Shown: positions 1-20,954 of the stretch, in pieces
How the letters are laid out: every line of letters begins with the position of its first letter
Position numbering within the stretch: position 1 is the stretch's first letter
From: a virus
IMG/VR virus record: IMGVR_UViG_3300028361_000143
Coordinates: 1-20,954 of that record
Strand: one strand, 5' to 3'
Length of the DNA: 20,954 nt
Translations under genes and position numbers: made by a program
The notes under the pieces: model-generated
What the model saw: only the letters and a program-made list of their open reading frames with translations
What the model was told of the DNA's origin: nothing
The model's database searches: none

Positions 1-279
1 GATGTTATTCTTAAATATGGTAATGAAACCAAGGGTGATGTCATACTTTCTTATTTGAAAGCCATGCCAGATTTAGTTAAAATCGATGTGTATGATGATT
101 TTGCTGGTGGTATGGAAAATAAAATCAGGGAATTTACGGATATCGAGAATCAGATTCCCGATGGTGTTGAATATAACATTTATGCCGTGGATGAAGGTCG
201 GGATACGTTTCATTTATTGGAATCAACGAATAACGTTCTTAATATAATCTATGAAGAACTACGAAATTTAAAACACTAG
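1..279 (+). CDS. Hypothetical protein, 3' end only
   Basis: The reading frame is open from the first base of the window to a TAG at 277-279, so this is the C-terminal 92 residues of a gene that starts upstream. A TTG at 55 could be read as a start, but the frame continues before it without a stop, so I treat the gene as partial. The segment is acidic and mixed alpha/beta in character, for example KIDVYDDFAGGMENKIREF and a C-terminal helix ending in ELRNLKH. I recognise no family. Its stop codon shares a base with the GTATTTATA element that precedes the next gene. Confidence 0.6.
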   Translation, partial: DVILKYGNETKGDVILSYLKAMPDLVKIDVYDDFAGGMENKIREFTDIENQIPDGVEYNIYAVDEGRDTFHLLESTNNVLNIIYEELRNLKH

Positions 280-287
280 TATTTATA
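279..287 (+). promoter_or_regulatory. GTATTTATA element upstream of the homing endonuclease gene
   Basis: GTATTTATA lies 13 nt before the ATG at 301. The same element occurs at nearly the same distance before the genes at 5914, 9867, 14599 and 17097. I infer a phage promoter -10-like box. Here it begins on the last base of the previous stop codon. Confidence 0.45.
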
Positions 288-300
288 ATAAAATTTCGAA

Positions 301-1026
301 ATGCCGAAAAAATTAACTAAAGAAGAATTTATTATGAAATCAAAATTTGTTCACGGAAAAATTTTTGATTATTCATTAGTTGATTATGTTAACAGTAAAA
401 CTAAAGTGAAAATAGTTTGCGTGAAACATGGTGTTTTTAAACAACGACCTAATGACCATTTAGGTGGGTATGGATGTAGAAAATGTCAATACGAAAAAAC
501 ATCGAAATTAAATAGGTTCACAAACGAAGAATTCATTAAAAGGGGTAAAAAAATACATGGGGATAAATATGACTACTCTGAATGTAAATATGATGGTTAT
601 GAGAAAAAAATTTCTATCATTTGCCCAAATCATGGTGTTTTTCATCAAACCCCACACAATCATTTAAGTGGGTATGGTTGTTTTAAATGTGGTGAATATA
701 AGGGTGAGAAAATAATTCGTTTATTTTTAGATGAACATGGTATTACATATGAACACGAAAAATCATTTGATGATTGTAGAGATAAGTTTCCATTGAGATT
801 TGATTTTTATTTACCTGAAGAAAATCTCTTAATTGAATTTGATGGTATACAGCATTATCAATCAATACCTTTTTTTGGTAATGATGACGGTTTAAAATCA
901 TACCGAAAACGTGATAAAATAAAAAATCATTATGTTATTAACGATAATTTAAAATTATTAAGATTACCGACAATTTTAATTGAACACGATGAATTAATCC
1001 CCACATTAAAATATTATTTAATATAG
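301..1026 (+). CDS. Homing-endonuclease-like protein: two zinc-ribbon repeats plus Vsr/EDxHD-like nuclease
   Basis: 241 residues. Two tandem repeats (about 7-62 and 73-130) share the pattern F-x-x-(K/R)-x-x-x-x-H-G, then C-x-x-H-G-V-F-x-Q-x-P-x-x-H-L-x-G-Y-G-C-x-x-C. The likely zinc ligands are C40/H43/C59/C62 and C108/H111/C127/C130. Such repeats are typical of DNA-binding parts of phage homing endonucleases. Residues 136-235 look like a Vsr/PD-(D/E)xK-type nuclease: E136, RFDFYLPE (D168), LLIEFDGIQHYQ (E179, D181, H185) and RDKIKN (D205). This resembles the EDxHD homing endonuclease family. I infer a free-standing mobile endonuclease that nicks or cuts related phage DNA. It is visibly A/T-rich, and the next gene starts 2 nt after its stop. 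No interrupted gene is evident beside it. An alternative is a resident nuclease with a phage function. Confidence 0.75.
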   Translation: MPKKLTKEEFIMKSKFVHGKIFDYSLVDYVNSKTKVKIVCVKHGVFKQRPNDHLGGYGCRKCQYEKTSKLNRFTNEEFIKRGKKIHGDKYDYSECKYDGYEKKISIICPNHGVFHQTPHNHLSGYGCFKCGEYKGEKIIRLFLDEHGITYEHEKSFDDCRDKFPLRFDFYLPEENLLIEFDGIQHYQSIPFFGNDDGLKSYRKRDKIKNHYVINDNLKLLRLPTILIEHDELIPTLKYYLI

Positions 1027-1028
1027 TT

Positions 1029-1832
1029 ATGAGTACGATAGCACCATATCATTTACCTCAAATTCGAGCACCATTAAATTATGTGTTGAATAAATTAGAT
1101 GTTGAAGGAATTCAATATCAATTAAATCTAAATCACGATTTAGATGATTTAAAACCCAGTCAACCCTTTGTTATTTCAGATATTGTTTCAAATGTGAATA
1201 TGGATGACCCGTTAATATGGATTTCAAATGAAAATAGAATACTTGATGGTCACCACACATGGATGCGTTGTTGGAATGATAATATTTCATGTAAATCAGT
1301 GCAAGTTAAATTAAATTTTAAAGATAGTTGTAGGATACTTAATAAAATACAGGATATTTATGAGTACGAACAATCACGAGAAATGGAAGAAGTTGTATCA
1401 CAGGACGTAATTAATTACTATGGTGACGATGAGAATCAGTTTCTTAAAGAATTAGAAAACAGTAATCAGGAATTAAATGACGGTGAACCAAATAATAAGG
1501 TTATTACGGCATATAGAAAAGACCCAATTAGAGAAAATTCAGTGGTTGGTAATTTCTTTTTATTAAAACCACAAGATGGTTTCGATAAGTATGAAATAGA
1601 ATTCGATAATCTCTTAGATATGGGTTCACTTGGAGTAACATATAAAGATGGTCAAGAACCAGTAGATATTCTGGCAAAAATCTGGTTTCCCAATATTAAT
1701 TTTGAAAAAATAGGTTCGGAACAGGATGTTCCAGCGATAAACATAAAAAATAAAGCCGTTGCTGAGAAAGCGATGAGAATGGGTTATGATGGAATTTTGT
1801 ATAATAATGTGATTGTTCAAGGATTAAAATAA
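1029..1832 (+). CDS. ParB/sulfiredoxin-like N-terminus fused to an ADP-ribosyltransferase-like C-terminus (tentative)
   Basis: 267 residues. Residues 50-85 contain PFVISDIV, then IWISNENRILDGHHTWMRCW. The 'DGHH-x-W' motif after a short beta strand is the signature of the ParB/sulfiredoxin nucleotide-binding fold, where DGHHR is usual. An acidic helical linker follows. The C-terminal 100 residues begin VVGNFFLLKPQDGFDKYEIEFDN and end MRMGYDGILYNNVIVQGLK. 'GYDGI-Y' close to the C-terminus is a recurrent feature of ART-like domains found in phage polyvalent or virion proteins, but I cannot see a full catalytic triad, so that assignment is inference. The gene follows the endonuclease gene by 2 nt, suggesting cotranscription. 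Possible roles include a nucleotide-dependent enzyme injected with the DNA or a head-associated protein. Confidence 0.5.
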   Translation: MSTIAPYHLPQIRAPLNYVLNKLDVEGIQYQLNLNHDLDDLKPSQPFVISDIVSNVNMDDPLIWISNENRILDGHHTWMRCWNDNISCKSVQVKLNFKDSCRILNKIQDIYEYEQSREMEEVVSQDVINYYGDDENQFLKELENSNQELNDGEPNNKVITAYRKDPIRENSVVGNFFLLKPQDGFDKYEIEFDNLLDMGSLGVTYKDGQEPVDILAKIWFPNINFEKIGSEQDVPAINIKNKAVAEKAMRMGYDGILYNNVIVQGLK

Positions 1833-1882
1833 TGGGTTATCCAACTGTTCATAAAAATCTACGAAAAACTAATAAAAAATAA
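1832..1882 (+). CDS. Possible 16-residue peptide or gene remnant
   Basis: The ATG shares its A with the preceding TAA (TAATG), as in translational coupling, and the frame encodes MGYPTVHKNLRKTNKK before a TAA. It is strongly basic. The length is close to what chance allows, so it may be a remnant or noise. The rest of the gap to 1986 is A/T-rich and I see no convincing promoter or hairpin in it. Confidence 0.2.
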   Translation: MGYPTVHKNLRKTNKK

Positions 1883-1985
1883 TAATATGTATGAAATAAG
1901 TTAAACTTTTGATAAAAACAAACTTTTTATATGAAAAAGAAAATAATATAACAACTTAATGTTAAAGGGATTAAAATAAGTAGAT

Positions 1986-2420
1986 ATGAATACATACAAA
2001 ATAACTAATATAACGAATCAACTACATAAACGTGATGTTCACTTCAAAACACCTGTGAAGATTGAGTATATTGATGACCGAAAAAAGAAAGTTGCCGAAG
2101 TTAAAACAGGTGAAAATCTATTTCTAACTGTAGCAACACTACCATTAGCAATACACAGATTAAGAATCAAAGGTTTAATAAATATTACTGAAGCAAGTGT
2201 TGCTGATATTAAAAAAATAAACCCACCTGAAAAGAAAACGGTAAAAAAAACTAAAATTGAAAAACCAAAGAGTTTGACTACGAAATCAGGTAACAGCGAA
2301 TCCGATACACTAAAAAAATCGAGTACCAGTAAATCAAGTACAACAAAGAAAAAGACTTATAGTAAATCAAGTTCAACGAGTTCTAAAACCGATTCAAAGA
2401 AAGAAGAATTCGGTAGTTAA
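1986..2420 (+). CDS. Hypothetical protein with Lys/Ser/Thr-rich tail
   Basis: 144 residues. The first 75 or so look folded, with predicted strands (VKIEYIDD, KKVAEVKTGENLFLTV) and a segment of small hydrophobic residues (ATLPLAIHRLRIKGLINI). Residues 76-144 are low complexity, dominated by K, S and T with repeated KSS/SST runs, and end in an acidic KKEEFGS. Basic disordered tails of this sort occur in DNA-associated or virion proteins, but I recognise no family. It stands alone between a 153-nt gap and a terminator, so it is probably its own transcription unit or the end of the preceding one. Confidence 0.6.
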   Translation: MNTYKITNITNQLHKRDVHFKTPVKIEYIDDRKKKVAEVKTGENLFLTVATLPLAIHRLRIKGLINITEASVADIKKINPPEKKTVKKTKIEKPKSLTTKSGNSESDTLKKSSTSKSSTTKKKTYSKSSSTSSKTDSKKEEFGS

Positions 2421-2442
2421 GCATAACATCAAGCAATAATTG

Positions 2443-2470
2443 AAAAACCAACAAATTTGTTGGTTTTTTT
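2443..2470 (+). terminator. Intrinsic terminator after the Lys/Ser-rich gene
   Basis: AAAACCAACAAA is followed directly by its exact complement TTTGTTGGTTTT and a T run ending at 2470. The perfect palindrome leaves only a few central bases for the loop. It sits 22 nt after the stop at 2420. As the hairpin is symmetrical and A-flanked, it could act in both directions. Confidence 0.7.
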
Positions 2471-2552
2471 ATGTGAAAGAATTCAAGATTCCGTGATGAT
2501 TTCCGTATAAGCAGATATATAGCATTATTTTATAAAAATTTATAATATTAAT

Positions 2553-3935
2553 ATGGACGGAAAAATAAGAATTTTATTTTATAACCTTGATGGAGCAGGA
2601 GTTAATTATTTCAGAACACAGACTCCTGCAATGGAACTTGAAAGAAATCATGGTGATAGGTTTTATGTGGAAATAAATCCACAAATCGATTTTAATGACC
2701 CCAGTTTTGTAGACTATCTCAAGACATTTCATATCATACATTATCACAGGCAGTTTCTTGGTGACACCCAACAAATGCTGAGACTCGCAGAAGAACTAAA
2801 AAAAGCTGGAACCACGTTAATCGTTGACATCGATGACTATTGGCAATTACATAAAGACCACCCGTTTTATAATATGAGTAAGGGAAAACAAATGCATGTT
2901 CCGATTCAAGAGAACCTGAAGATTGCGGATTACGTAACCACCACATCAGATATTTTTGCCGAGGAAATAAAGAAGGTTACGGGGAAAGATAATGTGGGTG
3001 TGTTCTATAACAGCGTTGACCCCACATGGATGAAACAATTTCAAAATAATTGGAAACCAGACCCAGATGGATTGGTTCGTATCACATATATGGCGGGTTC
3101 ATCACACATGGTTGACGTACAACAACTTGAGGGTGTCGTTAATTATCTACAGTCTCAACCAGATACCCGAAATAAATTTAAAATCATTATTGCTGGATGG
3201 GATACCGAGGGTAAAACCACTGATTACACCTTCAATCAGGAATTCAAAACCGAACTCGAAAGACTGGGATTGTGGACACATGAAGTCGTTAAGGCGGTAA
3301 ATAAACACAGAGGTAATGTCGATATGATACCCAAGATTCCCGATGAGATTAAGGAAAAATATCGTGATAACATATTTAATCAGGAACAACGTGATATCAG
3401 ATCGGAAGAAAGTATATATTTGATGTATGAAAAAATACTTACTGATAATCATGGGATTATTGAAAATGATGACTACTTGAGCTGGCTAATGAATTTCGAG
3501 AGAAATATACAGTATGACAACGAAGGAAATTTCGGAAGACGCTGGACACAGAAAGCCAATACGTATGCCAAGGTATTGGATGAAACCGACATAGCTCTCG
3601 CACCACTTGCCGATAACGGTTTCAATAGAATGAAATCCAATTTGAAGCAAGTGGAATGCTGGACTCGTAAACTTCCGATAGTCTGTAGTGATATCCCCCC
3701 ATATAATGTTCATGGTCACCACATGGAGAACTGTGTGTTGATTCCAAGTAAGAAAAACGCACATAAGTACTGGAAGAAGTATTTGAAGCAACTCATATTG
3801 GATGCCGAATTAAGAAAAAAAATCGGTAATCAATTACATGAAGACTTCAAAGAAGAATATAATCTTGCAAATGTCACGGCAAAACGTGCAGAATTCTATG
3901 AAAAAGTGATTGCCAAAACATTGGAAACCGTGTAA
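2553..3935 (+). CDS. GT-B fold glycosyltransferase (GT4-like)
   Basis: 460 residues. The N-terminal Rossmann-like half starts KIRILFYNLDGAGVNYFR and includes a loop-strand IVDIDDYW near 92-97, then YVTTTSDIFAEEI and VFYNSVDP (about 151-158), which is typical of the acceptor domain of group 1 glycosyltransferases. The C-terminal half has RITYMAGSSHM, FKIIIAGWDT and, around 346-368, DIALAPLADNGFNRMKSNLK-QVECW. That last stretch corresponds to the nucleotide-sugar binding region with the conserved acidic residue (E in QVEC), followed by LPIVCSDIPPY. The donor and acceptor cannot be read from the sequence. An insert-like stretch (about 245-300) between strands seems long for the family. Its place inside the structural gene region suggests glycosylation of virion proteins, or less likely of host surface sugars. 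It overlaps the next gene by 1 nt (TAATG), indicating coupling. The gap before it (2471-2552) shows no clear promoter. Confidence 0.8.
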   Translation: MDGKIRILFYNLDGAGVNYFRTQTPAMELERNHGDRFYVEINPQIDFNDPSFVDYLKTFHIIHYHRQFLGDTQQMLRLAEELKKAGTTLIVDIDDYWQLHKDHPFYNMSKGKQMHVPIQENLKIADYVTTTSDIFAEEIKKVTGKDNVGVFYNSVDPTWMKQFQNNWKPDPDGLVRITYMAGSSHMVDVQQLEGVVNYLQSQPDTRNKFKIIIAGWDTEGKTTDYTFNQEFKTELERLGLWTHEVVKAVNKHRGNVDMIPKIPDEIKEKYRDNIFNQEQRDIRSEESIYLMYEKILTDNHGIIENDDYLSWLMNFERNIQYDNEGNFGRRWTQKANTYAKVLDETDIALAPLADNGFNRMKSNLKQVECWTRKLPIVCSDIPPYNVHGHHMENCVLIPSKKNAHKYWKKYLKQLILDAELRKKIGNQLHEDFKEEYNLANVTAKRAEFYEKVIAKTLETV

Positions 3936-4963
3936 TGAAGAAACTTTTTAGAAATATAGTTCTTTGGTTATACATCAAACTTCATACATTGATGATTGCC
4001 ATAGGTGTGGCATTATTTAATACTGAACAGGAAATACTTAAAGCCGACCCCGATAATCTCAAAGAAGGTGATAAACATGTTCAGAGAATGCGTCATAGAA
4101 ATCAATTACTTGAGAAATTCTATGCTGGTCAAACCGATGAAAAGTACGTGCAAGAGTATTATGAAGTCCTTAAGAAAGCCGATAAGTTCATAAGAACAGC
4201 AACCCCACATCAAATGGCGGTTGCTGCCGATAAATATGGTACGAGTTACGGCATGAAAGACAAATGGGGTAGACGTTACGAACACTATGGTTTCTTCGAT
4301 GATAAGCACAAACATACTGGTAAGACATTGGGTGAGGTTCTAGCTATGGAATTCGAGGAAAGACGTACTAAGGACGATGATTTAAATATAATGTACATCT
4401 TTAATAACACGCCTATGGAAGTTGGTTTAAAGGACATTGGTGAGTCAATTGGTCGAAAGACTAAGGGAATAAATATTTCACCAATAACCGAAAATTATGG
4501 GGATGTTATTGATTATCCAGTAACACATTTACGTGATATCGAAATCAGAGAAACCCCACCATACATCAATAGGATTATTTTTAAGTGGGATGGCATTGAC
4601 ATCGTGGACATCAATAAAGCAAGCAAACAATTCAGATTTCCAATAAGTGTGGTTCGTGATAACGAGAAAGCAATAAATAAAATCGAAGAACTAACAGAAT
4701 TTCTACATGTTAAAAAGATTGGGTTTGAACACCGACAACTGGAATTTTTCATTCCATTACATTTCAACACATCTGAAATCGATGACAATTCAAATGTGTT
4801 TAGAGAAATTGTTGACATTAAACAAGTTTTTATTCGTGATGAATACGGAGAATTTCTTGCTTTTGGTGTTAATAATTTTGTGAAAAGAATAATTTATAAC
4901 GACACTCATGAAGTGCTGAAATTCGATGGAATTGAAATGCAAATGATGGGTAGAAAAACGTAA
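3935..4963 (+). CDS. Hypothetical protein with N-terminal hydrophobic segment
   Basis: 342 residues. The ATG uses the last A of the glycosyltransferase stop, so translation is probably coupled. Residues 5-28 (from FRNIVLWLYIKL to GVALF) form one hydrophobic helix, preceded by a positive MKKLFR; it could be a membrane anchor or a buried helix. A charged helical region follows to about 110, then a soluble alpha/beta part with WGRRYEHYGFFDD, LNIMYIFNNTPMEVG and strand-rich C-terminal repeats such as FRFPISVVRDNEKA. I recognise no family. The operon context (glycosyltransferase before, small acidic proteins and the baseplate block after) suggests a virion or assembly protein. Confidence 0.6.
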   Translation: MKKLFRNIVLWLYIKLHTLMIAIGVALFNTEQEILKADPDNLKEGDKHVQRMRHRNQLLEKFYAGQTDEKYVQEYYEVLKKADKFIRTATPHQMAVAADKYGTSYGMKDKWGRRYEHYGFFDDKHKHTGKTLGEVLAMEFEERRTKDDDLNIMYIFNNTPMEVGLKDIGESIGRKTKGINISPITENYGDVIDYPVTHLRDIEIRETPPYINRIIFKWDGIDIVDINKASKQFRFPISVVRDNEKAINKIEELTEFLHVKKIGFEHRQLEFFIPLHFNTSEIDDNSNVFREIVDIKQVFIRDEYGEFLAFGVNNFVKRIIYNDTHEVLKFDGIEMQMMGRKT

Positions 4964-4967
4964 TACT

Positions 4968-5372
4968 ATGTCAAAATTTTTAGAAGACCTAAAGAATGCT
5001 GCTGATGGTGGAGAATTTAATTCAGAGGCAGCGAAAAAAATTATCGAAGTAAGTGAAGCTGCTGAAAATAAAGCAAAAAATATGGAACCCTCACTGAAAA
5101 AAAGAATGGAAGACACCCCAGTTGAACCTGTTTCTGAGGACGAGGTGTCGGAATTAAATTCGGAATACGAGACTGAAATAAAAGAAGTCGATGCAGCAAA
5201 TAATCAACTGGCGATGCTGGTTGAAATCGAAGATATGGTGAAATTAACACTCGGTGATATGCTGGGTCATATTGAGAGTCTGGAAGAAAATCTTAAAGAT
5301 AAACTCAATGACACACCGTATCAAGAACTAAACTTAAAAATCAAAGAAATAAAATCAAAATACAAATTTTAA
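4968..5372 (+). CDS. Hypothetical acidic coiled-coil protein
   Basis: 134 residues, very rich in Glu, Lys and Ala, almost entirely helical by composition. Long heptad-like stretches occur around 10-40 and 65-130, for example EIEDMVKLTLGDMLGHIESLEENLKDKL. There is no signal peptide, no Cys and no recognisable catalytic motif. It starts 4 nt after the previous stop and ends 15 nt before the next gene, so it is in the same operon. Small acidic helical proteins in this position are often chaperones or scaffolding factors, but this is inference only. Confidence 0.6.
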   Translation: MSKFLEDLKNAADGGEFNSEAAKKIIEVSEAAENKAKNMEPSLKKRMEDTPVEPVSEDEVSELNSEYETEIKEVDAANNQLAMLVEIEDMVKLTLGDMLGHIESLEENLKDKLNDTPYQELNLKIKEIKSKYKF

Positions 5373-5387
5373 TTAAAACAAATATTT

Positions 5388-5834
5388 ATGGCAAAAATCG
5401 AAAAAGCGTCTGAGGATATCGTAAATCTATTCGAAGAAATCAGAGAGAAAACCACTATTCCTAAATGGGTGCAATTTGAGATTCTCAGTAACGACAAACA
5501 GAAGGAAATCTATAAAATCACCAAGGCTAATGACATTATAGAGGTTCTAACTGATGGGGTGAATTTTATTGTTGTGGTTAATGAGGAAATTCTGGATGAA
5601 TTACCGTTCGACATGCAAGAAATGGTTATGAATGAAGCTCTTGCTGGGGTTGTTGTTAACGATAGTGACACGGTTTCTCTGGATAAACCCAATTTTAATA
5701 CTCATCGAAGTATGTTAGAACACTATGGACACGAATCAATTGTGCGACTACACGAATCAATTAAAAGTCTTTATGACGCAAAAAAAGAAAAAGAAGACGA
5801 AGAAAAGGCGAGAACAAAAAAAGTTAAAGCATAA
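5388..5834 (+). CDS. Hypothetical protein, possibly a degenerate zincin-like domain
   Basis: 148 residues. The central part has strands IIEVLTDGVNFIVVVNEEILDELP, then a helix DMQEMVMNEALAGVVVN followed by an HRSMLEHYGHESIVRLHESI helix. The layout (a strand ending in -ELP-, then a helix with -NE-) recalls phage metallopeptidase-like proteins in which HExxH lies in that helix, but the His ligands are absent here, so any protease activity is unlikely. The last 18 residues are a charged K/E tail. It is the last gene before a strong terminator. The start is chosen at ATG 5388, which follows an A/T-rich leader with no alternative upstream. Confidence 0.6.
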   Translation: MAKIEKASEDIVNLFEEIREKTTIPKWVQFEILSNDKQKEIYKITKANDIIEVLTDGVNFIVVVNEEILDELPFDMQEMVMNEALAGVVVNDSDTVSLDKPNFNTHRSMLEHYGHESIVRLHESIKSLYDAKKEKEDEEKARTKKVKA

Positions 5835-5851
5835 TAGTTACATTAAATCCG

Positions 5852-5883
5852 AAATCCCGATAAGTTATTATCGGGATTTTTTT
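5852..5883 (+). terminator. Strong intrinsic terminator ending the 2553-5834 operon
   Basis: AAATCCCGATAA (5852-5863), loop GTTA, TTATCGGGATTT (5868-5879): a perfect 12-bp stem followed by T's to 5883. It is separated by only 8 nt from the GTATTTATA element that precedes the next operon. The terminator at 9806 shares the arm AAATCCCGAT. Confidence 0.9.
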
Positions 5884-5891
5884 GTTTATAA

Positions 5892-5900
5892 GTATTTATA
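5892..5900 (+). promoter_or_regulatory. GTATTTATA element before the baseplate operon
   Basis: GTATTTATA, 13 nt before the ATG at 5914 and just after the terminator at 5852-5883. A new transcript must start here if that terminator works, which makes this the best-supported promoter-like copy of the motif. Confidence 0.55.
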
Positions 5901-5913
5901 GGAAATTAATGTA

Positions 5914-6312
5914 ATGAATTCATATAACATAACATTTCCATTTAAAGATGACGTGACCACGAATACATTCATTCAAATGAATCGTGTGACTAAAGATGCG
6001 TATCTTTCTAATTTGTTGCTGTTATTATTAACGGAAAAACACGAAAGATATTATCAACCAGATTATGGTACGTTCTTACTTCAACACATTTTTGAACCCA
6101 ATGACGAAATCACTTCACGAATGGTTGAAGAAGACATTAAAGAAACCGTGGCGTTATTCATGCCTGAAATCAAAATAATGTCAGTGAGTTTCAATTGGCT
6201 AAACGATGATAATGGTCAACCAATATCTGAAAATCAATTAAATGTAAATGTTAAATTCGTATATAAAGAGGGTTCGTTATCGGAAGAAGGTAATTTAGAC
6301 TTAAATTTTTAA
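5914..6312 (+). CDS. gp25-like baseplate wedge protein (GPW/gp25 family)
   Basis: 132 residues, about the usual length for the family. The diagnostic core is residues 30-62: SNLLLLLLTEKHERYYQPDYG followed by TFLLQHIFEPND, matching the family pattern 'LLT--GER-x-x-P-x-(F/Y)-G--L---(L/I)F-P'. The downstream ALFMPEIKIMSVSFNW and the terminal strand NVNVKFVYKEGSLSEEG complete the alpha/beta fold. In T4-like and P2-like phages this protein forms the inner baseplate ring at the start of the sheath and contacts the gp6/J-type wedge protein, whose gene lies 3 nt downstream. It opens an operon after a terminator and a promoter-like element. Confidence 0.9.
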   Translation: MNSYNITFPFKDDVTTNTFIQMNRVTKDAYLSNLLLLLLTEKHERYYQPDYGTFLLQHIFEPNDEITSRMVEEDIKETVALFMPEIKIMSVSFNWLNDDNGQPISENQLNVNVKFVYKEGSLSEEGNLDLNF

Positions 6313-6315
6313 AAA

Positions 6316-8175
6316 ATGGCAACTGAAACAACAAACGTGATTCGCTACGGAAGCAGAACTTTCTCAGAAATTAGAGAGGATTTAATTGCTTTAATTAGAC
6401 AAAGTTACCCTGAGATACTTAGTGATTTCACGGATTCCAGTGTGGGTGCAATGCTTATTGACCTAAATGCTGGTGTAACAAACAACCTCTCTATGAATAC
6501 CGATAGGGCATTTCAAGAAACCCAATTAGAATATGCCCAACAAAGGTCAAGTATTCTGAACATAGCAAAAAATATGGGATTCAATATACCTGCTCGTAGA
6601 CCAAGTGTTACTGTTGTTGACTTTAGTGTAACGATTCCTGTTTTGGGAAATGCACCTGACTCAAATTATTATCCTGTGTTAAATGCAGGTGCACAAGTTG
6701 TTGGGGGTGGACAAACATTTGAGATTCAAAATAACGTGAATTGGAGTACGGCTGCAAGTAGTTTGGGTGACCCAAATAGAAGTATTATCCCGACACTGGA
6801 TTCCAATGGTATTCCAATTAATTATGTTGTAACCAAGAGAGAAGTGGTGTTAAATGGAGCCACAAATATATTTAAGAAAGTCATCACTGCCAGCGACATC
6901 ATACCGTTTTTCAGTATAACGCTTCCTGACCCAGATATTCTGGAAATCGATAGTGTGATTCTATTAGAGGGTACTAATTATAGTAATAACCCAACGGAAA
7001 CCGACTTCAGGAATATCAATAACCGTTATTTTGAAGTCGATTATTTGGCGCAGCAACGTATTTTTATTGAAGACGAATTAAACTCATCTGGAAGCAGTAA
7101 TACAAGTAATATTAAAGCTGCCAGATGGATAGATATTACGAAAAAATTTATTAAGGAATACACTCCGAATGGTTATTGTAAACTTACTTTTGGTTCTGGT
7201 GATGCTGATGTTAATGCGTTTAGAAACGGTTTTCTTAAAGCAGGTGTAAGTAATAGAGAGTTTCTCGATAATTTTCTAAATAACACGGCACTTGGTGAAA
7301 AACTCAAAGCCAATTACACGTTATTTGTTAAATACAGGACAGGTGGGGGTGCGAGTTCAAATATCGGCACAAATGTTCTGACTCAAATGGGTGCGTATTC
7401 TATGGGGGTGAACGGAAGTCGTCAGCAATTCAACCAAGCTGTTAGAAGAAGTCTCAGTGTTAATAATCCGATACCAGCCATTGGTGGTAATAATGGGTTA
7501 TCTACGGAACAAATCAGACAACTGGTTAAATACAATTTTAGTGCGCAGCAAAGAAGCGTTCAATTGACAGATTACTTGTTACAGGTGTATAAAATGCCCG
7601 GGGAGTACGGTTCACCTTATCGTGCCAATGCCTATAAATTAAATAATAAAATCGTTATACCCATTATAGGTATTGGTGCTGATGGTAAACTTGATAACAC
7701 TAGTAATTCATTGCTTCAGGGAAACATCACGGAATGGCTTACGGAATTCCGCATGGTTAATGACTATATAGAGGTTAAAGACGGTCAAATTTTTAATCTG
7801 GGATTTGAAGTCGATGTGTTTGTTGAAAATCAAGCCGATAATCAAATCGCAAACAATATAATTAATAAGATTTCAAGTTATTTCAATATAGCTGAACATG
7901 AAATGAATGAGGACGTGTATCTCGGAAAACTAGAAAGACAGATTCTGGAAGTCAATGGTGTTATAAATATAGTTAATCTCAAGGTCTTTAATTTGGTTGG
8001 TGACCAATATTCGATAAATACGGTGACTCAACCCATATCTAACACCAGTACTGGTGAAATAAAAATTGAAAACAATACAATATATTCAACACCTGATTCG
8101 ATGTTTGAAATCAAATATCCTCGAAAAGATATTAAGGTTTCGCTAAGAAAGTCAGTAATTAATGGAAAGAATTAA
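6316..8175 (+). CDS. Baseplate wedge protein, gp6/baseplate-J-like
   Basis: 619 residues. The N-terminus has the J-family opening: F-S-E-I-R-E-D-L-I-A-L-I-R-Q-S-Y-P, then DFTDSSVGAMLIDLNAGVTN and an aromatic/polar helix with RAFQETQLEYAQQRSSI and NMGFNIPARRPSV. The middle carries the inserted beta domain, including FVKYRTGGGASSNIG. The C-terminus has the typical YLGKLERQILEVNGVINIVNLKV segment. In contractile tails two copies of this protein form the wedge iris that opens on sheath contraction. The preceding gp25-like gene ends 3 nt upstream, and the downstream ORF overlaps by 14 nt, so translation is probably coupled. Confidence 0.88.
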   Translation: MATETTNVIRYGSRTFSEIREDLIALIRQSYPEILSDFTDSSVGAMLIDLNAGVTNNLSMNTDRAFQETQLEYAQQRSSILNIAKNMGFNIPARRPSVTVVDFSVTIPVLGNAPDSNYYPVLNAGAQVVGGGQTFEIQNNVNWSTAASSLGDPNRSIIPTLDSNGIPINYVVTKREVVLNGATNIFKKVITASDIIPFFSITLPDPDILEIDSVILLEGTNYSNNPTETDFRNINNRYFEVDYLAQQRIFIEDELNSSGSSNTSNIKAARWIDITKKFIKEYTPNGYCKLTFGSGDADVNAFRNGFLKAGVSNREFLDNFLNNTALGEKLKANYTLFVKYRTGGGASSNIGTNVLTQMGAYSMGVNGSRQQFNQAVRRSLSVNNPIPAIGGNNGLSTEQIRQLVKYNFSAQQRSVQLTDYLLQVYKMPGEYGSPYRANAYKLNNKIVIPIIGIGADGKLDNTSNSLLQGNITEWLTEFRMVNDYIEVKDGQIFNLGFEVDVFVENQADNQIANNIINKISSYFNIAEHEMNEDVYLGKLERQILEVNGVINIVNLKVFNLVGDQYSINTVTQPISNTSTGEIKIENNTIYSTPDSMFEIKYPRKDIKVSLRKSVINGKN

Positions 8176-8347: not shown

Positions 8348-8354
8348 TCACGAC

Positions 8355-8792: not shown

Positions 8793-8794
8793 AT

Positions 8795-8851
8795 ATGTCA
8801 AATCAATGTATATGTAAAGACTATTCAATGGATGAGATAAAAAAAAAATAA
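8795..8851 (+). CDS. Possible 18-residue peptide ending in a poly-A tract
   Basis: The ATG starts 2 nt after the previous stop. The frame reads MSNQCICKDYSMDEIKKK, ending at a TAA that follows ten consecutive A's. The tight spacing and CxC motif hint at a real small protein, but length alone cannot separate it from chance. Slipping in the A run does not join it to the next gene: the other two frames meet stops before the GTG at 8878. Confidence 0.3.
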   Translation: MSNQCICKDYSMDEIKKK

Positions 8852-14558: not shown

Positions 14559-14574
14559 TAAAAATAAAATAACC

Positions 14575-14583
14575 GTATTTATT
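14575..14583 (+). promoter_or_regulatory. GTATTTATT element before the 562-aa fibre-like gene
   Basis: GTATTTATT lies 15 nt before the ATG at 14599. It matches the elements at 279, 5892 and 9844 in all but the last base. No terminator is visible between the preceding stop at 14558 and this site, so readthrough is also possible. Confidence 0.45.
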
Positions 14584-14598
14584 AGAAAGAAAGTTTAA

Positions 14599-16287
14599 AT
14601 GGCGTTTATAGATAAAAAAAATCCAGTTGTAATCAATATTAAATTGACTTCACATGGCAGAGAATTACTCGCAGCAGGTGAATTGGATTTCAAGTATTAT
14701 GGCATCGGTGACAGTGAAATCGATTACAAGTTCAATGCCGAGGTAAATGCTGATGATACAGAATATACGGCATTCGATGCTGGTATATTACAACCAGCTG
14801 ATAATAATCCTGAAATGATTTCGTTTATCACAAGAAATGTTACTGGTGATAGCCTTAATGAACTTTCAAGCGTACCAGTTACTGCTTATAATGTTGAGAA
14901 TCAGGTTGATTCTCTGGGATTCTTTAGTAATCTCGGTACAACACCCAGTTTTATTACCGATAGTAATCACGTGAAACAACCCGACATAAAAATTGCGATG
15001 ACGGGTGTTACGGGTGGAAACACGTTGAAATTGGTGAAGGGACCGAGTTACGGCACAAGTGGAGAAGAACCTGCCGTGGGGGACTTATTACTCGTGAAAT
15101 GGACAACCAGTGGAGACACCACGGAACACACAATAAACACCTCACAACCACAACAATATCTCTGGTATCAGATTACAGGAATAACATCAGGAACACTTGC
15201 TGCCGATAATATTATTGTGGAATTAGACCGAGTAATTCCTAATTTTAGTGGCATGAGTTTGGCTTCAGACCTATATGCAGGTGCACTCGTATATTATAGT
15301 GAAATCAGCTTCAGTGGTGCGAGTGTATTTAACCTAACTCCGACACAATATGTTGATGAATCCGTACTGTCTTTCTTGGAAAACAGTCAGTGTCCCACAA
15401 TCGTATTTCCTTATTGGAATCTAAGCATTATTCATACCCAAGAAATAGCTGGTGTACAACCCAGTGATTTAAAATATACGCAATTCAAAAACAGAAAATT
15501 TGGTGGGTTCGTATCATACATACAGAATCAAGCACCCGTTAATAAAAGATTGGGTGTCGTGCACTACACCAATAGTAGTCCTGCAAATGTATATGCCGAG
15601 GGATTTCTATTAGATACATTGGAACTCGATATCCCCACAATAATGTGGCATAAATCTTCAACACCTGTAATGGGTGCGACATTCATCCCATATGGTAGTC
15701 CAAAATTATTGACAGGGGCAACCAAATCACTTAATACCACATATTATGACTTAGTAGATAAAAACAACACCAGTATTATCGTGGGTAAGGTTTTCAATGA
15801 ATTGAAACTCGTGGTAATTGAAGACCAAGAATTACTGTATGCGATGGAGTATAAATCAAACCGAAACTTTACGTTACCGAATTATAATGCCGATACCAAT
15901 ACGATAATATTTGGTTCTGGTGGTGGTGGGGGGACAAATGTGACTTGGACTACACCTGAAAACGATACATATGCGAGTTATGTTGGTGGAAACCTGAGTT
16001 GCATTGTATCTCAGGAATATTGTCATAGTGCCAAAAATTGGACGGCATTCCCAAGTGGTTCAAGTATATCTCTTGGTGGTATTAGCGATGCGGGATATCG
16101 TGTGTATGTATGTAATACCGAAGATGGTGAGGATAGCTATACCGAATTATGTGCCAAAAACATAGTGACCAATACAACAATAAGTATAGATGATGCTGAT
16201 ACCAGTGATGAAGAAACTTACAGCGTAACTATAGGACCAATAAACGGCACTCAAGGAATTATATTCTGTGGGTGTATATATTGCTAA
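14599..16287 (+). CDS. Fibre-like structural protein with Cys-rich C-terminus
   Basis: 562 residues. The N-terminus, IDKKNPVVINIKLTSHGREL followed by LAAGELDFKYYGIGDSEIDY, resembles attachment domains of tail-fibre proteins, where a 'T--G---L--G-----Y--IGD' phrase is common. A long beta-rich middle follows. A glycine linker, GSGGGGGTN, occurs near residue 438, and after it lies a separate module of about 115 residues with seven Cys, ending in FCGCIYC, the last residue being Cys. I infer a tail-fibre or baseplate spike protein whose tip module may be stabilised by metal or disulfides. It follows the giant gene and precedes another fibre-like gene by 10 nt. No catalytic motif is seen. Alternative: a whisker or decoration protein. 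Confidence 0.65.
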   Translation: MAFIDKKNPVVINIKLTSHGRELLAAGELDFKYYGIGDSEIDYKFNAEVNADDTEYTAFDAGILQPADNNPEMISFITRNVTGDSLNELSSVPVTAYNVENQVDSLGFFSNLGTTPSFITDSNHVKQPDIKIAMTGVTGGNTLKLVKGPSYGTSGEEPAVGDLLLVKWTTSGDTTEHTINTSQPQQYLWYQITGITSGTLAADNIIVELDRVIPNFSGMSLASDLYAGALVYYSEISFSGASVFNLTPTQYVDESVLSFLENSQCPTIVFPYWNLSIIHTQEIAGVQPSDLKYTQFKNRKFGGFVSYIQNQAPVNKRLGVVHYTNSSPANVYAEGFLLDTLELDIPTIMWHKSSTPVMGATFIPYGSPKLLTGATKSLNTTYYDLVDKNNTSIIVGKVFNELKLVVIEDQELLYAMEYKSNRNFTLPNYNADTNTIIFGSGGGGGTNVTWTTPENDTYASYVGGNLSCIVSQEYCHSAKNWTAFPSGSSISLGGISDAGYRVYVCNTEDGEDSYTELCAKNIVTNTTISIDDADTSDEETYSVTIGPINGTQGIIFCGCIYC

Positions 16288-16297
16288 TTAAAATAAA

Positions 16298-17035
16298 ATG
16301 GCAGCAAGCGGACACACAATATTCATAACATACGTACTAATACCAACAGGTAATACTGTTGGAAGTGGTTATCAGCAACCTATTCACTGTAATTACGTCA
16401 AAAAATTACAAGCCACGGCAGCTAACCCATATATAACCGAAGTTAATCTGAATTTCCCAAACCCAAAGGATTTTAATTTTCTTAATGCCGATATTACTAC
16501 TGGTACTGGGTACACAATGAATTGTATTCATGCCGTGGTTCAGATTGTCGATAATCAATCGTTTGCAACTATAAATGATGTTGTTCCCGATGCCAGTGCG
16601 TGGAAATATTTTGATATTAGTAACCAAGTAAGCGGATATACAGGTGTTCTTACACCAGCAAATCTAACCGCACAGGTATTTAAAATCTCATTATATAATT
16701 ATGATACCTATTCGGGATATACTTTAAATTACCTCAACTATCCTTCAAGTAGTCAAGTAGATAATCTGAGCTTTGGTGATGTGACGTATTTCTTTGGAAA
16801 CCTAACCACTAAAATCAAAGCCGATGTCTACACTATGGACATCGGTATTGACCTGCCTTTGGATGAGTTCAACTCCAGCACTAATTTGAGTTGGGATGGT
16901 GGTGAAACCGTCTTTATTAGTGAAGTCGGTATTTATGACAGTAACAGGAATTTAGTGGCAATCGGTAAATTAAACGACCCCGTACCAAAAGACTCTACGA
17001 TTTCCAGAACAATTGTTTTTGCTGTTGATTTCTAA
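16298..17035 (+). CDS. Fibre- or baseplate-associated structural protein
   Basis: 245 residues, beta-rich, with two Cys in the N-terminal half (HCNYVKK and MNCIHAVV). The last 50 residues, WDGGETVFISEVGIYDSNRN followed by LVAIGKLNDPVPKD, resemble the closing strands of phage tail-fibre and baseplate proteins, where 'EVGIYD--N-LVAIGK' recurs. It begins 10 nt after the previous gene and is probably cotranscribed with it. Function is inferred from this motif and context only. I see no terminator after it: the 61-nt gap to 17097 is A/T-rich and holds a GTATTTATT element. Confidence 0.6.
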   Translation: MAASGHTIFITYVLIPTGNTVGSGYQQPIHCNYVKKLQATAANPYITEVNLNFPNPKDFNFLNADITTGTGYTMNCIHAVVQIVDNQSFATINDVVPDASAWKYFDISNQVSGYTGVLTPANLTAQVFKISLYNYDTYSGYTLNYLNYPSSSQVDNLSFGDVTYFFGNLTTKIKADVYTMDIGIDLPLDEFNSSTNLSWDGGETVFISEVGIYDSNRNLVAIGKLNDPVPKDSTISRTIVFAVDF

Positions 17036-17073
17036 AAAAATCACATAAATCTATAATTTTTTATAATTTCTTA

Positions 17074-17082
17074 GTATTTATT
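17074..17082 (+). promoter_or_regulatory. GTATTTATT element before the RHH-like/RuvC-like genes
   Basis: GTATTTATT lies 14 nt before the ATG at 17097, in an A/T-rich gap of 61 nt. It marks the switch from structural to DNA-metabolism genes. Confidence 0.45.
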
Positions 17083-17096
17083 ATAAATTAAAAATA

Positions 17097-17318
17097 ATGA
17101 ATATGAAAGAAATTCTTACAATCAATAAAACCAAACCCAAATCTGTTATCATTGAGGGCAATCTACATGGTAGATTCAAGATGTATTGTAAGGGTAAGAG
17201 TTTAAAAATAGGTGGAGTGATTGAAGACCTCATTGCCATGTATTTAAACGACCCCAAGAAGATTCAATCCATGATTGAAGAAGTCAAAGAAATTAATTAC
17301 GAAGAACTTCATAAGTAA
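17097..17318 (+). CDS. Small protein with possible ribbon-helix-helix fold
   Basis: 73 residues; a second ATG two codons in (17103) is an alternative start. The order is a strand (KSVIIEGNLHGRF), a basic helix (KMYCKGKSLK), and a second helix (GGVIEDLIAMYLND), which fits the ribbon-helix-helix DNA-binding fold of Arc/MetJ-type proteins. A charged helical tail follows. It could regulate its own operon, since it stands first after a promoter-like element, but this is inference. The RuvC-like gene begins 6 nt after its stop. Confidence 0.5.
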   Translation: MNMKEILTINKTKPKSVIIEGNLHGRFKMYCKGKSLKIGGVIEDLIAMYLNDPKKIQSMIEEVKEINYEELHK

Positions 17319-17324
17319 GACAAT

Positions 17325-17939
17325 ATGCAAAAATATATCTGGTCATTAGACATTAGTACAACAAATATCGGTATGGCGTTATGGGATATCAGGGGTGGGT
17401 TAATTGAACTCAAACACCTTGAATTAAAGACCAATAAAAACACGCCCGTTGAAAATCGTGACATATATAAAGCCGAGATTTTCATGAAATACGTTCTGGA
17501 ATTTAAAGAAAGAATATCAAAAGAATTCAATGGACAGATTATTCATGTTATTGTTGAAGAACCACTTGGTGGAAGCAATAACGCTAATACTGTTTCTCTC
17601 TTATTTGGATTTAATGGTATTTGTAGGTATATATTGTATGAAGTATTTGGTACATATCCCATGAAAATAAGTGTGCATGAAAGTCGTAAACTTTTTTGTC
17701 CCGAACTTGTTCATACCGAGAAGAGAAAAGGTAAAATGGTCGAAGTTCTTAGTTTCCCCCCTGAATATCGAAAAGAAAAGAAGTTGTATATCTGGAAAAA
17801 AGTCTGTAAATTGGAACCGCAAATCGAATGGTTTTATAAGCGTGGAAGCACTACCGACCCCAAACCGATGTGTTTTGATATGTCTGATAGTTATGTTGTT
17901 GGATTTGCGGGTTTAAAAAAGTTGGGGTTTATTGCATGA
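17325..17939 (+). CDS. RuvC-fold nuclease (Holliday-junction resolvase-like)
   Basis: 204 residues. The acidic quartet of the RuvC/RNase H fold is visible: D9 in WSLDISTTNIGMAL, E78 or E79 in HVIVEEPLGG, and D185 and D188 in CFDMSDSYVVGF. A sequence between the second and last acidic motif (FPPEYRKEKKLYIWKKVCK) is basic and could contact DNA. Phages use such enzymes to resolve branched DNA before or during packaging. The gene follows the small RHH-like gene by 6 nt and overlaps the GIY-YIG gene by 4 nt (ATGA). The exact substrate cannot be told from sequence. Confidence 0.75.
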   Translation: MQKYIWSLDISTTNIGMALWDIRGGLIELKHLELKTNKNTPVENRDIYKAEIFMKYVLEFKERISKEFNGQIIHVIVEEPLGGSNNANTVSLLFGFNGICRYILYEVFGTYPMKISVHESRKLFCPELVHTEKRKGKMVEVLSFPPEYRKEKKLYIWKKVCKLEPQIEWFYKRGSTTDPKPMCFDMSDSYVVGFAGLKKLGFIA

Positions 17940-18244
17940 AATACGTTTATTTAATTCAGTCATTGGAAGACGGTTATTATAAAGTCGGGGTATCAAAGTA
18001 TCCGAAAAAAAGAATACGACAACTTCAAACGGGAAACTCTTCCGAATTGAAACTCATTGAATCCTTCCAATCCGAATTCGCCAATGTAATCGAAAAGGCG
18101 TTACATAGACGTTATTTCCATTTAAAGAAAGAAGGCGAATGGTTCGACATGGGTATTAGTCAGGAGACTTCCTTTCTTATGGAATGTAAGCAAATCGAAG
18201 AAAATCTTAAAATTCTGAAAGAAAATGGTAATGTATTTATATAA
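17936..18244 (+). CDS. Small GIY-YIG-type protein (T5orf172/MUG113-like)
   Basis: 102 residues. The pattern KYVYLIQS...YYKVGVSKYPKKRIRQLQTGN gives the GIY-YIG-like core, with K16-V-G18 and R26. E53 in VIEKALHRRY is the likely metal ligand, and GEWFDM is the usual ending of the T5orf172/MUG113 subtype. The first two bases of the ATG overlap the RuvC-like gene's end in ATGA. There is no extra DNA-binding domain, so it is probably a resident nuclease rather than a full homing enzyme. Its target is unknown. A GTATTTATA copy at the very end of this gene (18233-18241) is too far from the next start to be counted with the others. Confidence 0.7.
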   Translation: MKYVYLIQSLEDGYYKVGVSKYPKKRIRQLQTGNSSELKLIESFQSEFANVIEKALHRRYFHLKKEGEWFDMGISQETSFLMECKQIEENLKILKENGNVFI

Positions 18245-18320
18245 AAACCTTGCGTTTTTGGGAATTTTGTTATATGTTTGACAAAATTTCCGTAAATCAT
18301 ATTATCTTAATTAACATATA
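18245..18320 (+). promoter_or_regulatory. Promoter region with inverted repeat upstream of the metallophosphoesterase gene
   Basis: This 76-nt gap contains TTGACA (18278-18283), 16 nt, then TATTAT (18300-18305), a near-consensus sigma70-type pair ending 15 nt before the ATG. A Bacteroidetes-type pair also fits: CTTG at 18249-18252, 20 nt, TATGTTTG at 18273-18280. An inverted repeat AATTTTGT (18263-18270) / ACAAAATT (18281-18288) with a 10-nt spacer overlaps the TTGACA and could be a dimeric repressor operator. No T run follows, so it is not a terminator. Confidence 0.5.
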
Positions 18321-19799
18321 ATGACAAAAGAACGAATTGAAAAAGCAGTAGAAATTATTGAATACGCAATAGCTAATCAAGTGTCGGTCAAAGAAGCATC
18401 AGTGAAATGCGGAATGTCCGACACTTATGTTAAAAATACCAAGGCAGTTGTGTTTGATAAGTACGAAAATGGCACACTTGATGACGACCTTTTTAATCTA
18501 TTTAACGATGTCTATGGAAGTTACACAAATGTAACGGGATTCGTAACAAGCAGTAAAACCCAACCCAGCATCGAAGAGCCTGACCGTCCTAAAGACCTAC
18601 CCGTGACTAATGGTGAGAGTGAAAAATTTGAACAAAAAAATTATAACGAAGCCGAATATACTTGGGTTGGTGGTCAGAATTATGGTTCAGACCACATAAG
18701 AACGCTCGACCAACTAATGGCTGCAAGTGAGACCGATTTAAGTACTTGGAAAGTAGCGAGACATATCGTTAACAAATGGGATGTCACCATGAAGGTTAGG
18801 GAAAACGATGAGTTGGTTCCAAAAACAATTCAAAACTGGCAAGTAAAGGCATTTCTTGAACGCAATGTTAAAATGGTACGGGAACAAGCCATTGGTGAGA
18901 TATTCCAAGAAATGATTGAAGACTATAAACCACCAATACTACCATTAGCACCGAAAATCGAGTCCATTAAAGGTGGTATTGAAGATAAGAATCTCTTGGA
19001 AATCAGTATTTTTGACTTACACATTGGTAAACTTGCTTGGAGTGGTGAGACTTTTGAAAACTATGACATTAAAATTGCACGTAAGCGATTTCTCGATAGT
19101 ATTCAGAAACTGGTTCAGAGAGCCAGTGGCTTCAATTTCGAAAGAATACTTTTCCCTGTTGGAAACGATTTTTTCAATAGCGACACAATGGAAAATACGA
19201 CAACCAAAGGAACACAACAAGATGAAGACCTGAGATGGCAGAAAACATTTAGGGTCGGAGTAAGACTTTTGGTTGATGCGATTAATATGTTAAGAGAAAC
19301 AGGTGTACCTGTGGATGTGTTGGTCATCCCGGGTAATCACGATTTCGAACGCAGTTTTTATATGGGTTCGTATCTTGAAGCATGGTTTAAAAACGATGCT
19401 GCTGTAAACATTAATAATCATGCCTCACCGAGAAAATATTATCGTTATGGCAACACGCTTCTCGGACTCACACATGGAGGTGAAGAAAAGGAAGCCAGTC
19501 TCCCACTTCTTATGGCTACAGATATTGAATCCAAACCCATGTGGAGTGACACGAAATTTCATGAATGGCATCTCGGACATATTCATAGGAAAAGAACTGT
19601 TAAATACGAAATAAATAAAAGCAGACCATTAAATGAAGATTTAGGCGTAACGGTTCGATATCTGTCAAGTTTAACTGGTACTGAAGAGTGGCATCATAAG
19701 AAGGGTTTCGTTGGTTCAACAAAAGCAGCAGATGGTTTTGTTTGGAATCATGAATTCGGTTTGGTTGCTGCATTAAACACAAATTTAATATTAGACTAA
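18321..19799 (+). CDS. HTH-metallophosphoesterase fusion
   Basis: 492 residues. Residues 1-40 form a helix-turn-helix-like segment (KEASVKCGMSDTYVKNTKAVV). A long linker of about 180 residues follows. The calcineurin-like metallophosphoesterase domain shows all expected metal motifs: D232-x-H234 (FDLHIG), D283 (GNDFFNSD), N339-H340 (GNHDFE), H385 (THGGE) and H420-x-H422 (GHIH). Such domains include nucleases of the Mre11/SbcD group and other phosphodiesterases; the substrate is unknown. The HTH may direct it to DNA. A promoter-like region precedes it and the next gene starts 1 nt after its stop. Confidence 0.8.
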   Translation: MTKERIEKAVEIIEYAIANQVSVKEASVKCGMSDTYVKNTKAVVFDKYENGTLDDDLFNLFNDVYGSYTNVTGFVTSSKTQPSIEEPDRPKDLPVTNGESEKFEQKNYNEAEYTWVGGQNYGSDHIRTLDQLMAASETDLSTWKVARHIVNKWDVTMKVRENDELVPKTIQNWQVKAFLERNVKMVREQAIGEIFQEMIEDYKPPILPLAPKIESIKGGIEDKNLLEISIFDLHIGKLAWSGETFENYDIKIARKRFLDSIQKLVQRASGFNFERILFPVGNDFFNSDTMENTTTKGTQQDEDLRWQKTFRVGVRLLVDAINMLRETGVPVDVLVIPGNHDFERSFYMGSYLEAWFKNDAAVNINNHASPRKYYRYGNTLLGLTHGGEEKEASLPLLMATDIESKPMWSDTKFHEWHLGHIHRKRTVKYEINKSRPLNEDLGVTVRYLSSLTGTEEWHHKKGFVGSTKAADGFVWNHEFGLVAALNTNLILD

Positions 19800-19800
19800 T

Positions 19801-20334
19801 ATGACAACAAAAAAAGAAGACAAAAATGTTATCGGAATAGCTAAAGGCACATCTGGGACGAGAAAAAAAATCAGTACCAGAAAACCCGTAGCAAGAAAGA
19901 CAACAAGAAAACCTGCCACGAAAAAACTTACTCCTGAGCAGGAAAGAGACCTTAAGGCAAAACAAAAGGTCGAGGAATTACTTAAAGACGCTGAATTAAC
20001 ACCGAAAAAGGAAAATGATTTACTTGAGCTTGATGAAGACGAGAAAATCGATGAACCAAAAGGTGTTGAATGGCTGGAAGAACAGGTTCAAACCCTGATT
20101 GATGAAAACAAAGCACTTAAAGCCGAAAACCAAGCATTGATGGAAGACGGTAATGTTGGAAGCGATAAAATGCTGGAAGCCGTGGTTACGTTGTTTGATG
20201 AAATACAGAATAACCATATTAAATTAGGTACAGACCCCAAAACTGGTTTGGGTAATTTCAGGATTTACTGTCCCGGGTTTCTCAATAGAATGATTAAATT
20301 TTTCCCGTTTTTGAATGATTATAAGAAATATTAA
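19801..20334 (+). CDS. Basic N-terminal, coiled-coil protein of unknown function
   Basis: 177 residues. Residues 1-50 are very Lys/Arg/Thr-rich with repeats like RKPVARKTTRKPATKK, similar in style to histone H1 tails. A short acidic segment (LLELDEDEKIDEP) follows, then a coiled coil with heptads (EWLEEQVQTLIDENKALKAE) to about 120. The C-terminus holds a compact part, NNHIKLGTDPKTGLGNFRIY followed by CPGFLNRMIKFFPFL. A nucleic-acid-binding tail joined to a dimerising coil is plausible. The gene begins 1 nt after the metallophosphoesterase stop, so the two are probably cotranscribed and may act together. The next gene lies beyond a terminator. Confidence 0.6.
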   Translation: MTTKKEDKNVIGIAKGTSGTRKKISTRKPVARKTTRKPATKKLTPEQERDLKAKQKVEELLKDAELTPKKENDLLELDEDEKIDEPKGVEWLEEQVQTLIDENKALKAENQALMEDGNVGSDKMLEAVVTLFDEIQNNHIKLGTDPKTGLGNFRIYCPGFLNRMIKFFPFLNDYKKY

Positions 20335-20360
20335 CCAATAATCACATACATATATAATGA

Positions 20361-20397
20361 ATTGCTCTAAAACACTTTGTTTTGGGGCAATTTTTTT
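20361..20397 (+). terminator. Intrinsic terminator after the 18321-20334 operon
   Basis: TTGCTCTAAAACA pairs with TGTTTTGGGGCAA (two G-U pairs) around a 3-nt loop, extended by one A-T pair, and is followed by seven T's at 20391-20397. It lies 27 nt after the stop at 20334 and only 13 nt before the GTG of the next gene. Confidence 0.85.
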
Positions 20398-20406
20398 ATA
20401 TATTTG
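20376..20406 (+). promoter_or_regulatory. Bacteroidetes-type promoter embedded in the terminator
   Basis: TTTG (20376-20379), 19 nt, TATATTTG (20399-20406). This fits the Bacteroidetes -33 TTTG / -7 TAnnTTTG form exactly, including the usual 19-21 nt spacing. The first element is inside the terminator hairpin and the second directly follows the T run. A transcript would start within a few bases of the GTG at 20411, that is nearly leaderless. Confidence 0.4.
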
Positions 20407-20410
20407 TGTG

Positions 20411-20954
20411 GTGAGAAAAAGAAAGTGGACATATGAAAAATGTAAAGAAGAGGCATTGAACTACTCGCATAGATATCAATTCCAATTAAATTCTAATGCG
20501 TATTCGGCTGCTGCAAGAAATGGATGGCTTGATGAAATTTGTGCTCACATGAAAAAAACGGGTAATTGGTATAAGAGATGCGTATATGTGTATGAGTTTT
20601 CTGATAATTCAGTATATGTTGGATTGACATATAATTTAGATAAAAGAAAATTAAATAGGTTAAAGAATAAGAACGATGCAGTTGTCAAACACATATCCAA
20701 AACCAACATCCAACCAATTATTAAGCAAATTACCGATTATATTGATGTTAATGAAGCCTCTAAATTAGAGGTTTATTATATCGAAAAATATAGTAATGAT
20801 GGATGGGTTGTGTTGAATGTGGGAAGGGGTGGAACTGTTGGAAATAATCCGTATAAATGGGATTATGTGACATGTAAAGAAACAGCTAAGAATTTTAGAA
20901 CAAGAAATGAATTTAAAAAAGCATATCGTAGTGCCTATGAATCTGCACGTACAA
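20411..20954 (+). CDS. GIY-YIG homing-endonuclease-like protein, 5' part
   Basis: The frame is open to the window end, so the gene is partial (181 codons). I choose GTG 20411 (GTG 20408 is also possible) because the in-frame ATG at 20357 lies upstream of and within the terminator. The N-terminal motif WTYEKCKEEALNY...AYSAAARNGWLDEICAHM is a DNA-binding repeat seen in phage homing enzymes. The GIY-YIG core follows: CVYVYEFSDNSVYVGLT, the R/K-rich helix LDKRKLNRLKNK, the catalytic Glu in ASKLEVYYIEKY and LNVGRGG. A second copy of the DNA-binding repeat starts at WDYVTCKETAKNF and is cut by the window edge. It is probably a mobile endonuclease with its own promoter. Confidence 0.75.
   Translation, partial: MRKRKWTYEKCKEEALNYSHRYQFQLNSNAYSAAARNGWLDEICAHMKKTGNWYKRCVYVYEFSDNSVYVGLTYNLDKRKLNRLKNKNDAVVKHISKTNIQPIIKQITDYIDVNEASKLEVYYIEKYSNDGWVVLNVGRGGTVGNNPYKWDYVTCKETAKNFRTRNEFKKAYRSAYESART

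Follow-up and report, generated by a model that had tools for sequence, protein, structure and literature searches.

Why should a virus lose one four-base word almost completely from its DNA? The question is raised by IMG/VR virus record IMGVR_UViG_3300028361_000143, a single viral contig of 20,954 nucleotides (here termed the window; its GATC count was made on that contig alone), which has genes of the large myovirus type and contains GATC only once. The original prediction, made from the letters of the window, ascribed the shortage to long exposure to a GATC-cutting restriction system. Comparisons with related jumbo phages and with unrelated T7-like marine phages point to a different source of the pressure: the lineage probably carries, or until recently carried, a nuclease of the PD-(D/E)XK type that recognizes GATC, and would protect itself by site elimination.

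The shortage itself was fully borne out. The only GATC of the window (3400-3403) compares with 61-70 expected under Markov models and with 54.2 +/- 5.4 in synonymous-codon shuffles (z = -9.9), which never reproduced the depletion (the lowest of 2000 held 32 sites). GATC thus lies below both codon and composition controls, as is typical for restriction-site avoidance. Asp is written GAC before codons starting with C in every case, as had been predicted (44 GAC, 0 GAT), while GAT prevails before other codons (285 GAT, 91 GAC). Likewise, where the preceding codon ends in G, Ile is never written ATC (0 of 66), a codon used 107 times elsewhere. The lack of a single exception in either context indicates that the absence of GATC is maintained at synonymous positions. 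The one remaining site is judged to be real, because a second contig (L001), 99.97% identical to the window, has it too.

Jumbo-phage records closely related to the window reach 349 kb, and GATC is missing from whole large records of this group: 0/652 in 349 kb, 0/654 in 299 kb and 0/422 in 218 kb (GATC and other word counts are given as observed/expected). The sister of the window (G002/L003; 60,694 bases; 86-88% identical DNA) has none of about 205 expected sites. The 77 informative loci fall into two classes, 48 with essentially no GATC and 29 with 16-82% of the expectation; none lies between 3% and 16%. On a tree of the baseplate protein the GATC state changes 11 times, whereas shuffled labels give 23 changes on average. 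Metagenome 3300031578 yielded relatives in both states (L005, 0/51; L049, 39/54), which rules out a library artefact. Although all records except the isolates are metagenome assemblies, an origin of the pattern in library preparation, codon usage or chance can practically be dismissed, since codon shuffles exclude a composition effect and isolate genomes show the same pattern.

A comparison of gene content between large GATC-free and GATC-bearing records left few candidates. Together with a profile search, it revealed in the GATC-free records a 167-residue protein with the D-(X)n-E-X-K signature of PD-(D/E)XK nucleases. The protein matches PHROG 13596, to which no function is assigned there, and no Pfam family. 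Residues D43, E59 and K61 are invariant in the jumbo-phage type; in the pelagiphage type E32 and K34 are invariant, and assignment of the first acidic residue is less secure. The structure was predicted with a pLDDT (predicted local distance difference test) of 90.9, and of 79.5 in a second model. The best fold matches in the PDB were weak, namely RecU (E 0.06) and EcoRV (E 0.15) for the first model and the Type II restriction enzymes Eco15I (E 0.03), NhoI, MspI and PvuII for the second. The scan for further carriers with the nuclease profile was made blind to GATC. All 36 stretches with a nuclease of the main type proved to be devoid of the word (pooled 0/1553), several of them overlapping the same records, so that the count corresponds to roughly 17 lineages.

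The same scan returned a group of T7-like marine phages, unrelated to the jumbo phages, whose distant homolog is shorter and is encoded between the DNA polymerase and exonuclease genes; in Pelagibacter phage HTVC019P it has 134 residues (AGE60597.1). These carriers also lack GATC, with counts of GGCC, CTAG and AGCT that are for the most part close to normal. A second set of phages was then selected by DNA polymerase alone, after which isolates with and without the nuclease were added. Among its 81 regions covering the locus, the 52 with the nuclease are all GATC-free and the 29 without it all keep GATC; pooled counts are 0/1404 and 1056/1255, respectively. Four GATC-free contigs in which no nuclease was seen (L340, L358, L366 and L370) stop at the polymerase, ahead of the nuclease locus. 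The 15 other four-base palindromes stay at observed/expected ratios of 0.25-1.0 in the carriers, and none behaves like GATC. Absence of GATC and its synonymous character are thus shown, as is the association of the absence with the nuclease gene in two unrelated phage groups.

Cultured phages allow the same comparison within one host. GATC is absent from the stretches read of all 12 isolates with the nuclease (HTVC019P, HTVC109P, HTVC120P, HTVC031P, HTVC011P, HTVC025P, HTVC115P, HTVC201P, Eistla, HMO-2011, CRP-143 and C75C1) and kept in all five without it (HTVC119P, HTVC200P, CRP-171, CRP-118 and CRP-403). On host HTCC7211, phages HTVC109P, HTVC120P and HTVC115P carry the nuclease and have GATC at 0/29, 0/28 and 0/32 (in no particular order), whereas nuclease-free HTVC119P has 54/52. 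The corresponding values are 0/25 versus 24/33 for host FZCC0015, and 0/58 versus 52/94 and 66/72 for host FZCC0023. GATC is the sole missing 4-mer in HTVC120P, HTVC115P and L290. In C75C1 (L500:5986-7778; GATC 0/32) the nuclease homolog directly precedes a gene encoding a C5 DNA methylase, an arrangement resembling a restriction-modification system.

Classic avoidance, in which GATC-cutting systems of the hosts (DpnII, MboI or Sau3AI type) purged the sites over long exposure, has to be weighed against these data. No restriction systems have been reported in SAR11 genomes (PMC9516812); given this and the split of same-host isolates by the nuclease, host restriction is unlikely to account for the marine cases. 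The explanation does draw support from the jumbo phages, which lack many restriction-type palindromes besides GATC and in which partial GATC depletion persists in nuclease-free relatives, and from Staphylococcus phage K, in which such avoidance is known (GATC 0/113 in 50 kb). Candidate hosts were searched for GATC enzymes, as had been proposed: in a Bacteroidota metagenome bin that also holds a GATC-free relative, a DpnII-methylase-like gene lies near a MutH/Sau3AI-like gene (L228, contig C502, genome G046). However, contig C502 may be contamination, as a neighbouring gene looks foreign, and such families are rare in the sampled Bacteroidota (DpnII above the cut-off in 11 of 395, MutH/Sau3AI in 7 of 395). 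We therefore consider host restriction an unlikely cause of the total loss, though one that keeps some weight. It probably explains why GATC is partly depleted in jumbo phages that lack the nuclease, and may account for the initial loss of sites. The selection at synonymous positions and the pressure of a GATC cutter that had been proposed thus stand, but the placing of the cutter in the host is less likely, because total loss tracks a nuclease borne by the phage.

The nuclease might also be a passenger, tolerated by phages that had become GATC-free in some other way and playing no part in keeping the word out. The association is silent on the order of events, and GATC-free phages with no recognized nuclease exist. 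However, each trait changes seven times on the tree of the polymerase-chosen set, none of the 81 regions is discordant and all four well-supported independent pairs agree; the association is repeated in the two phage groups, and carriers with near-normal GATC are almost absent (the exceptions, L297 and L316, are described below). On this evidence a mere passenger seems quite improbable.

We hypothesize that the small phage-borne nuclease recognizes GATC and that, with a matching methylase not found in most cases, the phage genome would be safe solely through removal of every GATC, largely by synonymous changes. Any new GATC would then be a self-inflicted break in every infection. A site cut at each infection would be driven to a true zero, whereas host restriction, met only sometimes, would leave mere depletion. 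Phage-encoded protection was sought as well. None of the phage records searched contained GATC methylases (PF02086, PF05869) or matches to the DpnII (PF04556) and MutH/Sau3AI (PF02976) profiles, and no Dam-type methylase was present in 46 records, some of them partial. The idea that some relatives keep GATC by means of a GATC methylase of their own was accordingly rejected for the records searched. The DNA attacked would most likely be the host chromosome, whose degradation would feed nucleotides to phage replication. In pelagiphages the nuclease gene occurs alongside those for DNA polymerase, exonuclease and ribonucleotide reductase, a setting consistent with a role in degrading host DNA to nucleotides. 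Alternatively, the nuclease may act on competing phages and so exclude rivals.

Several observations weigh against the proposed role of the nuclease. Cutting at GATC is an inference from the complete absence of the word in carriers, and no fold match reaches significance by itself (best E 0.03-0.06). The Fisher value of 1e-22 for the association ignores relatedness and overstates independence, as there are just four well-supported independent pairs; the gene may also persist only after an independent loss of GATC. The distant family member L297 keeps GATC at 14/48, and L316 has 2/13. Partial jumbo-phage records L004, L024, L035 and L077, and the 43-kb record L421, are GATC-free with no recognized nuclease of the family. 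One subfamily, n3, goes with normal GATC, so that being homologous is not enough to predict the word. Finally, the window keeps one GATC and its nuclease locus falls off the contig. In L421 (9709-10032), as in the likewise GATC-free L429 (2850-3179), a gene of the UPF0102/PD-(D/E)XK type behind the DNA polymerase gene takes the place of the family nuclease.

The position of the missing locus can be estimated from the sister, whose nuclease has 169 residues and in which the gene following the nuclease starts four bases before the nuclease end (Table 1). The first 279 bases of the window correspond to the end of that following gene, so the window begins about 300 bases downstream of the expected nuclease copy; no contig extending it leftward was found. 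With the sister gene lying just past the left end, the window phage may well carry the nuclease itself. The single GATC could reflect either recent loss of the nuclease or tolerance of one site.

Table 1. Positions of sites and genes in the window and of the nuclease locus in its sister record
Feature	Record	Position	Strand	Remarks
Gene remnant, C-terminal part (92 residues left)	window	1..279	+	Intact counterpart in sister, L003:4209-4787
Homing-endonuclease-like gene	window	301..1026	+	PHROG 559 HNH endonuclease, E 2e-59
Glycosyltransferase, contains the sole GATC	window	2553..3935	+	PHROG 7162, E 4e-32
Sole GATC	window	3400..3403		AGA TCG (Arg-Ser) in the glycosyltransferase gene; sister has AGG TCG, same amino acids
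Baseplate wedge protein, marker for the tree of relatives	window	6316..8175	+	PHROG 219, E 1e-19; 80 related loci
CTAG sites	window	276, 4340, 7700, 7930, 8511, 10777, 14103
PD-(D/E)XK nuclease	sister	L003:3703-4212
Gene following the nuclease	sister	L003:4209-4787

GATC is not the only word missing from the window. The earlier claim that GGCC is absent held (0 against 14 expected), and the counts added missing or depleted words that had gone unnoticed: CGCG (0 against 9), CCWGG (0 against 29), CGNCG (1 against 17) and CCGG (6 against 28). The synonymous-codon shuffle test also flags GGCC, CGCG, CCGG and CTAG. The seven CTAG sites of the window contrast with none of about 49 expected in the sister; the two phages mostly differ synonymously at matched sites, so the pressure on CTAG must have changed within a short divergence. 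Further restriction-type words are absent from the jumbo-phage relatives in various combinations. When genes were matched by presence and absence to the loss of CCWGG, GGCC, CGNCG and CTAG in eight large records, no clear nuclease was found among the matches listed. The nuclease gene does not explain the missing GGCC, CGCG and CCWGG of the window; host restriction is the simplest and more likely account of these.

Other members of the family may have targets of their own. We lean towards the view that the PHROG 13596-matching proteins are methylase-free restriction enzymes directed against host or rival DNA, for which self is defined by absence of a word, and that subfamily-specific words could be read from the genomes of carriers. 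The 328-kb record G009 (L121-L137) keeps GATC (285/885), lacks AGCT (0/434) and GGCC (0/178), and carries a divergent relative of the 167-residue nuclease. AGCT was rejected as the target of this type, because jumbo phage L061 has a similar second nuclease, yet AGCT at 13/28. Assignment of a word to the n3 type failed as well, GGCC and CCWGG being missing also from relatives without n3. The two family nucleases of L061 are encoded in tandem (1049-1630 and 1627-2154).

The proposed system resembles several known ones in part. Like phage K, with its avoidance of Sau3A sites, the GATC-free jumbo phages are large and lack other restriction words; in phage K, also lytic, the cutter is ascribed to the host, while here total loss tracks a phage nuclease and phages of the same host differ. 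Type II GATC systems (DpnII/MboI, Sau3AI) are comparable in that the predicted nuclease bears a PD-(D/E)XK signature and is associated with GATC, but protection here would consist in site absence rather than methylation. Endonucleases II and IV of phage T4 act on unmodified cytosine, so that host DNA is destroyed and phage DNA spared. Selective destruction of host DNA by a phage enzyme is also proposed here, with the difference that self would be marked by a missing sequence and not by a modified base. The restriction enzyme PacI is reported to lack a partner methylase, in a host poor in PacI sites. It is thus a methylase-free cutter whose host is protected by missing sites, but it is bacterial and has an 8-base site, whereas the phage enzyme would require hundreds of copies of a 4-base word to be purged. 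Searches of an open-access literature library turned up no account of such a system.

If this reading is correct, an unannotated gene found in jumbo phages and in ocean viruses that rank among the most abundant (SAR11 phages, HMO-2011) gains a function, along with a target word predicted from sequence alone. Absence of a word would then be a third way for viruses to distinguish their own DNA from that of the host, beside base modification and compartments. Moreover, the lack of a restriction word in a phage would not necessarily reflect the restriction systems of its host, which calls for caution in host prediction.

The window also encodes a tail protein of 1563 residues, homing endonucleases, a RuvC-like resolvase and a DNA repair exonuclease. 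The homing-endonuclease-like gene near its left end is an insertion relative to the sister, as judged by the spacing of the matched flanks, and is distinct from the PD-(D/E)XK nuclease linked to the loss of GATC. One member of the window's clade was found inside a Bacteroidota metagenome bin, and Flavobacterium is the host of a distant relative; these weak clues make a Bacteroidota host likely for the window phage and its jumbo-phage relatives.

Methylase protection may replace avoidance in one relative, G029, the sole record among 23 related ones with a gene for a C5 cytosine methylase (L143:1231-3063, minus strand), which is split by an intein; CCWGG (134/227) and GGWCC (149/214) are the most normal in this record. 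The isolated Microcystis phage Mel-JY01 (L223), distant by its baseplate protein, lacks both GATC (0/113) and CTAG (0/43) in 50 kb. At positions 2443-2468 of the window, 26 bases match the reverse complement of the same stretch in the near-identical contig and probably form a terminator hairpin.

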